Source: an uncultured Erysipelotrichaceae bacterium (GTDB taxonomy: Bacteria; Bacillota_I; Bacilli_A; Erysipelotrichales; Erysipelotrichaceae). Taken from it: DNA of 64,000 nucleotides. Under the pieces are notes generated by a model that searched no databases, was not told where the DNA came from, and was given only the letters and a program-made list of their open reading frames with translations. Below are positions 56,613 through 60,796 of this stretch, one piece after another; the first letter of the stretch is position 1, and every line of letters begins with the position of its first letter. The position numbers were made by a program, and so were the translations under genes. The DNA lies in assembly GCA_944325685.1 (NCBI GenBank), contig CALVBC010000026.1, positions 1-64,000 on the forward strand. The letters are read 5' to 3'.

Positions 56613-58322
56613 TTATCTATTTTTGAGATAATCCTCAACGTAGGCACGGATCTCATCTTGTGATTCTAGATCCAAGACCTTCTCCGCTAAGCCTTTCATC
56701 TCTTCGTAATTGAGGCTTCTGATCATCTTACGTGCTGGTAAGATCGATGGCGCCGTCATCGAGAATTCATCAAGGCCTAAGCCAAGCAAGATCGGTGCAG
56801 CGACGACATCACTTGCAAGTTCACCACAGACACCACACCATTTACCATACTTATGAGCGGCATCGATCGCCTTTTTGATGAGGGTCAAGACACCTGGGTT
56901 AAGTGGTTGATATAGGTATGATACCTCTTTAGAGCCACGGTCAGCAGCCATCGTGTATTGAGTGAGGTCATTAGTACCGATCGAAAAGAAATCAGCGTAT
57001 TGAGCAAATTTCTCCGCCATGATCGCACTAGCAGGGATCTCGACCATCATACCGACTTCAATATTTTCACCGACATTGTACCCTTCTTTGATGAGCTTTT
57101 CTCTTTCTTCTTCATAGAGGGCTTTTGCGCGTTTGAATTCATCGATCGTAGCGATCATCGGGAACATGATCGCTGCTCTACCATAAGCGCTAGCTCTTAA
57201 GATCGCTCTTAGTTGGGTCCTAAAGATATCTTGACGGTCAAGACATAGTCTTACAGCACGATATCCTAAAAATGGATTTAGCTCTTCTGGGAACTCAAAG
57301 TAGTTTAGCTTCTTATCACCACCGATATCTAGTGTCCTAAAGACGACGCGTTTGCCATTCATCCTTTCAAGGACTTCTTTATAAGCGACAAATTGTGTCT
57401 CTTCATCTGGGAAGTCATCAACTGAATCCATATAGAGGAATTCGGTACGATATAGGCCAACAGCTTCACCACCATTCTTGATGACACCATCGACATCCTT
57501 TGGTGTACCGATATTAGCTGCGATCTCGACCTTATGACCATCTAAGGAGATGCTCGGTTGATCGACTAATACTTTTAATGCTTCTTTTTCCGCTTTTAAG
57601 GCATCACCGCGCTTTGTATAGTCAGCGACGATATCTTCACTAGGCGAAACGATAACATCACCTGTGGTAGCGTCCATCGCGATGATATCGCCATCTTTAG
57701 TGCCTTCTAAAATGCCACGGCAACCGACGACGGCTGGGATCTCTAAAGATCTAGCCATGATCGCTGAGTGTGAAGTCCTACCACCCTCTTCTGTACAGAA
57801 GCCGATGATATAGTTTTTATCCATCTGAGCTGTATCACTTGGTGTAAGGTCACTAGCGACGATGATGACCTCTTCATCGATGGTCGTTAGATCAGGTACT
57901 TTGACCCCGATGATATTGCACAGTAAGCGATGTCCGACATCCTTGATATCAGCCGCTCTCTCTTTGAAGTATTCATCTTCCATCATCGAGAACATATTGA
58001 CCATCATATCAGTCACTTCTTGACAAGCAGCATCAGCGTTACTTCCATCATTGATCTTCATTTCGATCTGACCCTGATATTCAGGGTCTTGTAGCATCGT
58101 CAAATGCGCATCGAAGATCTCTAATTCTTCGGGTTTTAACTTACCTGTAGCTCTCTCTTTGATCTTGGTGATATCAGCCTCAGTCTTAGCGACTGCCTCT
58201 TTGAATTTAGCTAATTCACTAGCTGTTTCACCTCTTGTTTCTTGTAAGACGATCTGTGGTTGGACATATTTATAGACCTTACCGACAACGATCCCACTTG
58301 ATACAGCGATTCCTTTTAACAT
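56613..58322 (-). CDS. ptsI: PTS enzyme I (phosphoenolpyruvate-protein phosphotransferase)
   Basis: 569 residues. The N-terminal HPr-binding domain and the phosphohistidine segment GGRTSHSAIMARSLEIPAVVG (His near 189) are followed by the PEP-binding TIM barrel with YRTEFLYMD, MVEIPASAIMAEKFA, FFSIGTNDLTQYTMAADR and GVCGELASD. It transfers phosphate from PEP to HPr for sugar uptake. HPr (ptsH), usually adjacent, is not here. SD AAAGGAG lies before ATG 58322, with promoter TTGAAG-17-TAAAAT upstream and a terminator after. Confidence 0.97.
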   Translation of the reverse strand: MLKGIAVSSGIVVGKVYKYVQPQIVLQETRGETASELAKFKEAVAKTEADITKIKERATGKLKPEELEIFDAHLTMLQDPEYQGQIEMKINDGSNADAACQEVTDMMVNMFSMMEDEYFKERAADIKDVGHRLLCNIIGVKVPDLTTIDEEVIIVASDLTPSDTAQMDKNYIIGFCTEEGGRTSHSAIMARSLEIPAVVGCRGILEGTKDGDIIAMDATTGDVIVSPSEDIVADYTKRGDALKAEKEALKVLVDQPSISLDGHKVEIAANIGTPKDVDGVIKNGGEAVGLYRTEFLYMDSVDDFPDEETQFVAYKEVLERMNGKRVVFRTLDIGGDKKLNYFEFPEELNPFLGYRAVRLCLDRQDIFRTQLRAILRASAYGRAAIMFPMIATIDEFKRAKALYEEEREKLIKEGYNVGENIEVGMMVEIPASAIMAEKFAQYADFFSIGTNDLTQYTMAADRGSKEVSYLYQPLNPGVLTLIKKAIDAAHKYGKWCGVCGELASDVVAAPILLGLGLDEFSMTAPSILPARKMIRSLNYEEMKGLAEKVLDLESQDEIRAYVEDYLKNR

Positions 58323-58457: not shown

Positions 58458-58736
58458 TCAGATTTTTAGAGCTTCGATAAAACTGGCAAAGGCGATCGCC
58501 TTACGACGGTTAAATGTCGACTCTGAGTAAAGATCATAGAACCAGTTTGGATCTTGATCATCATCTTCAAGCATGTGCTTGATGATCTCACGTGACTTCG
58601 AATCTAAAGTCGATACAGCGTATTCGATCTTAAGGATGGTGTCACGAGCATGTCGTAATGTGTCAAGATCAACATTCAAGGTCCCTACGACGTGTGCATC
58701 GATCAAAAGCTTATGCCTTCGATAGCACGCTACCAC
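58458..58736 (-). CDS. Small helical protein with ArpU/sigma-4-like HTH, unusual start
   Basis: I do not recognise the family with certainty. From GTG 58736 it encodes 92 residues. The C-terminus (WFYDLYSESTFNRRKAIAFA) resembles the SxSTxxRxRxxAI helix-turn-helix of ArpU/MG284-like proteins, and the rest is helical. The GTG has SD GAGGAG at a long spacing (11). The same frame stays open for 21 more codons back to the hpf TGA stop, with plausible coding sequence (ITKYSTRINRGVVELV) but no ATG/GTG/TTG. An ATG overlapping the hpf stop (TGATG) is in another frame and ends after 12 codons. The true start may be non-canonical, or the gene may be frameshifted. Confidence 0.5.
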   Translation of the reverse strand: MVACYRRHKLLIDAHVVGTLNVDLDTLRHARDTILKIEYAVSTLDSKSREIIKHMLEDDDQDPNWFYDLYSESTFNRRKAIAFASFIEALKI

Positions 58737-58799
58737 TAATTCAACAACTCCTCGGTTGATCCTAGTGCTGTACTTTGTTATAACTCTCCTTACTGGCCA

Positions 58800-59327
58800 T
58801 CACTCGTCGATCTCGATCAGACCGTAGTTATCATCAAAACGCTTGTAAACTACTGCTAGCTTATTTGCATCGATGTCTTTGTATATGAAGAAGCTGTGTG
58901 ATAGCATCTCCATCTGCATGATGGCCTCATCTAAAGTCATCTCATCTGCATAGATGCGTTTTGTTTTTACGAGGGTTTCATCTTCATTTGGCTCTTCATT
59001 GAGCGTGATGAAATTCTCGGCTAATGAATCCTTGTGTCTGCGAGATAATCTCGTCTTCTGTCTGCGTATTTGATCTTCTAGCTTGTCGATCGCTAGGTCT
59101 ACCGCAGCATAGAAGTCCTGATGCATGACTTCTGCTCTTAATAGTCCTACTTTCGTTGGGATCGTCACTTCTACTTTTTGCCCATTTGGGTACACCTTAG
59201 CGACTACACGTGCTGTCGTGTCGTCATCGATCATGAAGTACTTCTTCAAAAAGCTCAACTTCGTTTCGATCTTATGACGCATACCGTCAGTGATAGTGAT
59301 ATTTTCGCCATAAATTTCAAATTTCAT
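58800..59327 (-). CDS. hpf: Long-form ribosome hibernation promoting factor
   Basis: 175 residues. The N-terminal HPF/YfiA domain (MKFEIYGENITITDGMRHKI, LDLAIDKLEDQIRRQKTRLS-like at about 75-95) and a C-terminal dimerisation domain (TKRIYADEMTLDEAIMQMEML, HSFFIYKD, YKRFDDNYGLIEI) mark the long form that makes 100S ribosomes in one protein. ATG 59327 has SD AAGGAG eight bases upstream; longer starts enter the upstream gene. The stop TGA overlaps an ATG and is followed in frame by the ORF described at 58458-58736. Confidence 0.95.
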   Translation of the reverse strand: MKFEIYGENITITDGMRHKIETKLSFLKKYFMIDDDTTARVVAKVYPNGQKVEVTIPTKVGLLRAEVMHQDFYAAVDLAIDKLEDQIRRQKTRLSRRHKDSLAENFITLNEEPNEDETLVKTKRIYADEMTLDEAIMQMEMLSHSFFIYKDIDANKLAVVYKRFDDNYGLIEIDE

Positions 59328-59341
59328 ATAGAAAACTCCTT

Positions 59342-60796
59342 CTAAGTTGCCATTAGATCTAACAACCATTTATATATTAAGTATAAGCTATATGAGTCCA
59401 ATGAACAATATGCCGATAGATCCTTTTTCACATCATCAAGATCGACATACTTGTCATTTAGATCTAATAGCCGCCACTTATATACCGCATCCATACCACT
59501 CGATATCGCTAATTCCTCATAGTCCATATCCGATACGACCTTGACTAAGGATTTGACCGAAAAGTTACCACGCATCTTCGTATCATAGACTAGCCCTTCT
59601 TGGAAAGGATAGGCCATGTCGATAAACCGCGACAGTAGCTCATCGATAAACGGAGCATATGCTTCAAATTGCCGTTTTAATTCACTGAGGCGGAGCATCT
59701 CCGCACCCTTAGCGTTATAAGCGATAAGGTATGCATCTTTTGGGACATCCTTTAATAGTGATCTGATGAAATCCTCACGACAATCACCCGTTTGGATAAA
59801 CTCACGATGAGTTAGGGTCCCATCTTTTTTGAGCATGTGCATCGAATACTGGAATGGCACATGTTCATATGGTCTTAGACCTCGATACGGTGGGATCATA
59901 TATGTCTCCCACTCGAAATCGATAAAGACTAAGGTCTTATCTTTAAAGCTCGCAAGCCATTTACTTAACGCCAGATCATCATGATATGATCCACCATTAC
60001 GATCGGCTTGGATCTGCGCATATTGGACCCTCGTCCCTTCGATCAGATCGATCCTTGCATCTTTAAGGTACTTGATACCTTCGTTTATCATCTGGTCTTT
60101 TTTAGCTGATGATACGAGGAATTCGATACTGTTATCAGGCAGAACTTGCGGGAAGCACTGCGCGTAAAAGTCGCAAAGACCGCGTAGCTTACATCGACGC
60201 CTTTTGATCGGCGGATGTTGCGCGAGTGATCCTTTCTTCATCCGAGCTAGGATGTCGGAAAGATCATAGCCATCATCGATCAAGTCATCTAACTTGATGC
60301 TTGGTCGCCCCTGATGGTAAAGATGATCGCTGACCACAAAGAGCTTTTTAAGATCAAGATCTTTATCGCGTACATATTCGCCATTTAGATGGACGATATA
60401 TACTTTGGTGATCTTGATGCCGTTTTCCCTTAAGACCCAAAGATTATCGCGATAGAATTCAACATCTTCATCTTTGGGGAACGGGGCATACATCACAAAG
60501 TACAATTCATACCCATCTCGCACTTTATGCAAAAGTGGGACCTTGATCCTGAGATCATCATAAGCAAAGCGAGCTTTGACGAACCATTCGTGATCATTGA
60601 GCTCCTTAATCACACGTTCTGGTGCGTCGCCCCTTTGTCCGATATAGTAACCGTCTATGCCTAAGTAGTCGACAACGAGTTTTGTGAGCTCTTCATCATG
60701 GCGTAGATATGGTTGGTAAACTGTAGCTTGGTCTTGATCTAGGTAATATAAGCGCTGACAGCGTTTATACCTCTTGACGTCGCTGATGTGTATCAT
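59342..60796 (-). CDS. DUF2779 protein: Cas4/RecB-like plus DEDD-type nuclease domains
   Basis: 484 residues. The N-terminal part has MIHISDVKRYKRCQRLYYL (first cysteine of a Cas4/RecB-type Fe-S nuclease) and a later cluster RRRCKLRGLCDFYAQCFP giving the remaining cysteines near 200-215. The C-terminal DUF2779 domain has FIDFEWETYMIPPYRG and PYEHVPFQYSMHML, similar to a DnaQ-like DEDD exonuclease with D-x-E, and LSAYCSLDSYS near the end. It may process nucleic acid; the substrate is unknown. TATCAT ends six bases before ATG 60796, with no proper SD. hpf follows 14 bases after its stop. Confidence 0.78.
   Translation of the reverse strand: MIHISDVKRYKRCQRLYYLDQDQATVYQPYLRHDEELTKLVVDYLGIDGYYIGQRGDAPERVIKELNDHEWFVKARFAYDDLRIKVPLLHKVRDGYELYFVMYAPFPKDEDVEFYRDNLWVLRENGIKITKVYIVHLNGEYVRDKDLDLKKLFVVSDHLYHQGRPSIKLDDLIDDGYDLSDILARMKKGSLAQHPPIKRRRCKLRGLCDFYAQCFPQVLPDNSIEFLVSSAKKDQMINEGIKYLKDARIDLIEGTRVQYAQIQADRNGGSYHDDLALSKWLASFKDKTLVFIDFEWETYMIPPYRGLRPYEHVPFQYSMHMLKKDGTLTHREFIQTGDCREDFIRSLLKDVPKDAYLIAYNAKGAEMLRLSELKRQFEAYAPFIDELLSRFIDMAYPFQEGLVYDTKMRGNFSVKSLVKVVSDMDYEELAISSGMDAVYKWRLLDLNDKYVDLDDVKKDLSAYCSLDSYSLYLIYKWLLDLMAT

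Follow-up and report, generated by a model that had tools for sequence, protein, structure and literature searches.

Bacteria sometimes use rare and inefficient start codons to hold regulators at a low level. The 64,000-nucleotide stretch of DNA analysed here (referred to as the window), from an uncultured Erysipelotrichaceae bacterium, carries on its minus strand a small gene, X, whose frame is open right up to the stop codon of hpf and has no ATG, GTG or TTG ahead of a GTG at position 58736. Where does translation of X begin? An initial annotation, made from the letters of the window, presented X as a helix-turn-helix gene with a disrupted or unconventional start, and offered a +1 frameshift, read-through of the hpf UGA or a non-AUG start as explanations. 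The non-AUG start is the best supported of the three, and X is most likely an ordinary small regulator gene with an AUA start, as judged from its sequence and those of its relatives.

Layout of the hpf-X locus

The gene order on the minus strand is hpf, X and ptsI, and the features of the locus are the following.

58803-59327, minus strand: hpf, ribosome hibernation-promoting factor, 175 aa (PF02482, E 3e-22; PF16321, E 7e-20)
58800-58802, minus strand: TGA stop codon of hpf, overlapped by an ATG at 58800-58798 (TGATG); TGA and TGATG likewise in the sister locus L014
58762-58800, minus strand: 12-codon frame of the overlapping ATG, ending at a TAG (58764-58762); unconserved (3 codons in L014)
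58786-58792, minus strand: SD-like TAAGGAG, 4 nt 5' of the ATA (duplex -8.9 kcal/mol)
58779-58781, minus strand: candidate AUA start of X, kept in L014 and aligned with the ATG start of locus L016
58458-58781, minus strand: X, putative 107-aa regulator of the MG284/MPN403 family (NF045770; AlphaFold2 model), coordinates including the stop codon
58734-58736, minus strand: GTG, rival start of X in the middle of predicted helix 1, codon 22 of the 113-codon frame, with an SD-like GAGGAG 11 nt upstream
56613-58322, minus strand: ptsI, downstream neighbour of X (PF02896, PF05524, PF00391)

X is read in the frame of hpf. Behind the hpf TGA (58802-58800) come 21 open codons and then the GTG (58736-58734), the first ATG, GTG or TTG in this frame. 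The initial annotation had described this correctly, as it had the ATG that overlaps the TGA, whose frame closes after 12 codons (peptide MASKESYNKVQH in the window), and the SD-like TAAGGAG, which it placed near 58790 and which lies at 58792-58786. An open stretch of 21 codons is by itself unremarkable, since its chance is about 0.37 by simple arithmetic, (61/64)^21. The case against chance comes from a sister genome, in which the frame relation is the same, no insertion or deletion separates the two species from hpf through X, and the substitutions upstream of the GTG are of the coding type.

In both species X is followed by a hairpin and then T (seen by eye; missed by a scan), so that hpf and X may share one message ending at this hairpin. 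On its other side hpf adjoins the gene of a DUF2779 protein (window 59342-60796; PF11074, E 2e-32), for which an RNase H-like match was also obtained but is weak.

Comparison with relatives

The closest relative of the window is genome G003 (locus L014), in which hpf is 99% and X 92% identical. The arrangement in L014 is that of the window, X lying in the hpf frame and lacking ATG, GTG or TTG at its start, and the alignment of the two is gap-free from hpf through X. The differences between window and L014 number 3, 1 and 50 at codon positions 1, 2 and 3 of hpf (50/54 at the third), and 10, 2 and 39 in X from the GTG onward (39/51 at the third), where 36 codon changes are synonymous versus 7 non-synonymous. 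By these changes X is a small gene under purifying selection, so that 'disrupted' is the wrong word if a dead gene is meant.

Between ATA and GTG the differences number 1, 2 and 7 at the three codon positions (7/10 at the third), and the changed codons are synonymous in 7 cases and non-synonymous in 3. In a neutral simulation, 10 differences were placed randomly in these 14 codons, with kappa set to 2 and 6. A BLOSUM score at least as high as that observed had a probability of 0.0008 (kappa 2) and 0.0027 (kappa 6), or 0.0012 and 0.0037, respectively, when open frames only were counted; for as few non-synonymous codons as observed, or fewer, the probabilities were 0.010 and 0.018, and at most 0.022 with open frames only. 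An 11-codon sub-block also entered the simulation, picked post hoc with the data already seen. These mostly synonymous changes, 10 differences between two species, support coding sequence that reaches back to about the ATA and bear out the coding-like appearance that the initial annotation had noticed upstream of the GTG. A search of genome contigs for further members of the clade returned one locus, L031, and no third species.

X stands behind hpf in all nine genomes of the genus. Read by position, its start is ATG in six of them and GTG in one (L019), and the window and G003 lack such a start; in L015 and L020 the start ATGAATGA overlaps the hpf stop. We surveyed four genera (g1, g3, g71 and g19), in which X was matched in 9/9, 33/36, 2/2 and 1/4 genomes, giving 45 X genes. 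The start codons that we picked from position and SD at 41 loci are canonical in 38 (ATG 29, TTG 5, GTG 4), ATA in two and ATT in one. In the remaining four genes (G227, G220, G212 and G236, of which G236 carries an internal TGA) a canonical start is available as well, so that it is available in 42 of the 45 genes, the exceptions being the window, L014 and G218. Across the wider family X has matches, mostly weaker, in 125 of 195 genomes, starts having been surveyed in the four genera plus a few loci; a search of viral contigs found no relative.

The neighbourhood is kept as well, with hpf upstream of X at 40 of the 41 loci (at one of them with only 30% identity) and ptsI downstream at 37 of 41, within the DNA fetched. 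These neighbours served as controls: hpf starts with ATG at all 39 scorable loci, and ptsI at all 37, at the aligned codon in 31 and one codon upstream in 6. Therefore, the missing start of X is no general fault of the assemblies. A close hpf is absent directly upstream of X in L089 (G144; no match) and L066 (G209; the 30% case), and ptsI still follows in both. In L019 the distance from X to the aligned ptsI start is 927 nt, versus 18 to 158 nt at the other 36 ptsI loci, and something may lie between the two genes there. X matches with one internal stop were seen in L076 (G236), G161, G100, G127 and G149, and are pseudogenes or assembly errors.

The exception in another genus, G218 (L078, 1501-1503), has the SD-like AAAAGGAG, then 7 nt and an ATT, with no canonical codon before a conserved Tyr of X; it appears to be a cleaner non-canonical start than the ATA of the window itself. 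Near-AUG starts are probably used within the genus of the window too, because in 9/9 genomes (L022-L030) infC has an ATC at the same position, as judged by eye, preceded by GGAGG. In two of these (L026 and L030) the sequence upstream offers no canonical codon; in the remaining seven other in-frame canonical codons are present upstream. In Escherichia coli, the non-canonical infC start serves autoregulation by IF3.

Candidate start codons and alternative explanations

Several observations make the AUA at 58781-58779 the probable, though far from certain, start of X. The ATA is identical in the window and L014, the 2/2 genomes of the clade, and the only near-AUG codons common to both species in this stretch are the ATA and an AGG inside the SD-like sequence. 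Moreover, it aligns in both MAFFT alignments with the ATG start of L016 (ATA ACA AAG vs ATG ACC AAA), in an alignment that spans gaps. A start at the ATA leaves 19 residues before the conserved Tyr and a start at the GTG only 4, while the 39 aligned homologues, with starts chosen by us, begin 11 to 38 residues before it. Homologues that begin exactly at the GTG and have no similarity upstream, which the initial annotation had named as the finding that would speak against it, were not seen: L014 retains similarity there, most of its changes being synonymous, and 39/39 homologues begin at least 11 residues before the Tyr, although 15 of these author-chosen starts have a nearer canonical codon behind them.

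The signals around the ATA itself are of modest quality. The window has AAGGAG at 4 nt, and the sister only AGGA at 5 nt (-6.8 kcal/mol). The aligned SD-ATA spacing is 3, which is short, as 35 of the 38 frames of the window whose SD could be scored fall at 4-11 (38 scorable among 53 long frames, with starts chosen automatically). Pairing of the first two bases of the ATA is predicted at 69-81% for the window and 54-63% for the sister, and structured RNA around the start of X found no support (z -1.19 for 131 nt, +1.42 for 81 nt). Since AAGGAG-N4-ATA is not a rare pattern (2 in the window against 0.76 expected, with 15 of 100 shuffles reaching 2), the pattern alone proves nothing.

The most serious competitor is a start at the GTG (58736) with GAGGAG, the upstream open frame being a leftover of an ancestral N-terminus, which we hold to be unlikely but worth real consideration. 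The GTG and a GGAG core are kept in both species, with duplexes of -8.8 kcal/mol in the window and -12.4 kcal/mol in the sister; the aligned SD spacing of 10 (by our count) equals the value for ptsI; and 15 of the 39 homologues have, behind the chosen start, a further canonical codon at most 10 residues from the Tyr. On the other hand, the remaining 24 have no such near codon, and the codons upstream of the GTG evolve as coding sequence. In the AlphaFold2 model of the 113-residue frame, helix 1 comprises residues 3-38, the ATA being residue 7 and the GTG residue 22, so that a GTG start would cut about half of this helix, with 4 residues remaining ahead of the Tyr; the model thus agrees with coding sequence upstream of the GTG. 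The first canonical codon of the window falls inside helix 1, and that of L014 lies 8 residues before the Tyr. The GTG also sits in a predicted hairpin (window 58695-58770) whose loop holds most of the GAGGAG; the predicted pairing of the GTG is 94-99% for the window, more than for the ATA, and 70-82% for the sister, where the hairpin is less closed.

An Hpf-X fusion, produced by UGA read-through of hpf, is improbable. X is in the hpf frame and open in both species, and TGA TGG CCN is conserved; read-through by way of an altered tRNA-Trp is treated in the accessible part of PMC13092985. Against this, the six codons from TGA to ATA carry no coding signal, with differences of 0, 2 and 3 at the three codon positions, two of three changed codons non-synonymous and simulated P of 0.15-0.26 over the measures used, in what is a very short stretch. 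Of the seven other species of the genus, six have X outside the hpf frame, and the seventh (L021) has it in frame behind a TAA but with its own ATG. TGA is also the terminator of 16 of the window's 53 long open frames. Nothing positive for read-through emerged.

We give even less credit to ribosomes that restart at the overlapping ATG and then shift +1 into X. TGATG is common to both species, and in the window an AAA-G inside the 12 codons is a possible slip site (by eye), but the sister frame ends after three codons (ATG GCC GGA TAG), none of which re-pairs after a +1 slip, and shares no site with the window. Least credible of all is that X is a decaying pseudogene in the clade or its frame relation an assembly error: a canonical start is missing and both genomes are multi-contig assemblies, yet from the GTG onward synonymous changes in X far outnumber the others, and the arrangement recurs in two species, which likewise makes a mutation or sequencing error unlikely.

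Putative function of X and known non-canonical starts

X matches NF045770, the MG284/MPN403 family, with 40.4 bits against a curated cut-off of 37.3. The model has 57 positions and spans residues 49-104 of the 107 of X; the family name carries no function, and 11/11 aligned homologues match it at E <= 1 (best 4e-19). A match to the ArpU phage regulators (TIGR01637) is weak and limited to the C-terminal half (E 0.0025; 18.0 bits vs a cut-off of 43.1), and X adjoins a chromosomal hpf instead. A Pfam search with X gave no convincing family (best E 0.037 and 0.011, short of the cut-off wherever one was given), a PDB sequence search nothing convincing (best row a designed helical repeat protein), and Foldseek with the X model no match at E <= 0.001. 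A literature search on MPN403 and MG284, by title and start of abstract, found no paper on either protein. The AlphaFold2 model has a mean pLDDT of 88.3; along helix 1 the mean rises from 52 (residues 1-10) through 84 (residues 11-20) to 96 (residues 21-30). The top structural matches of its C-terminal part are promoter-binding domains of sigma factors (3hug_A, Z 6.5, thus <8, rmsd 2.3 over 72 aligned residues), and X may possibly have a fold like sigma region 4, although this likeness is suggestive only.

If X starts at the AUA, its translation from the hpf-X message would begin 18 nt behind the hpf stop, where fMet-tRNA would be placed on the AUA by a ribosome that has either just bound at TAAGGAG or finished hpf and reinitiated. 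X would be kept scarce because initiation discriminates against this codon; we infer this low output, as we do any effect of IF3 and any coupling to hpf. The ancestor of the clade probably had an AUG here, as L016 still has, and a one-base change would have given the AUA. A bolder proposal, which we think rather unlikely, is that in this lineage a sigma-like regulator behind a hibernation gene uses near-cognate starts (AUA in the window, AUU in G218), its level thereby reporting either how stringent initiation is or how often ribosomes reinitiate after making Hpf; if true, the reading of near-cognate starts would tie hibernation to transcription through the choice of start codon. For annotation the matter is simpler: mechanical ORF calling puts the start of X at the GTG and cuts helix 1, and genes like X are easily mis-started or missed.

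Non-canonical starts of this kind are already known from infC, ccpN and sigR. The available portion of PMC11497404 holds nothing on AUA as a start codon. In Staphylococcus aureus, as far as the accessible text of PMC13009471 goes, infC, ccpN and citZ start at AUA and cvfC1 at AUU, and three tested genes gave about 10% of the AUG output in one medium, ccpN reaching up to 30% in another. The likeness to X extends beyond the AUA and AUU codons to the products, ccpN encoding a repressor, cvfC1 a possible regulator and X a putative one. The S. aureus starts, however, have extended SDs and were mapped by profiling of initiation (PMC13009471, same portion), whereas the SD of X is short-spaced, weak in the sister and known from sequence. 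In Streptomyces, according to the part of PMC5472188 at hand, IF3 represses sigR at its GTC start; as proposed for X, a sigma-type regulator is held down by a non-canonical start within a co-transcribed pair, but the codon is GTC where X has ATA, sigR is paired with an anti-sigma factor, and the effect of IF3 has been demonstrated for sigR. Our results suggest that X adds a case to these starts, and the AUA of an uncharacterised regulator beside hpf would be a further entry among the few regulators whose output appears to be limited by a poor start codon.
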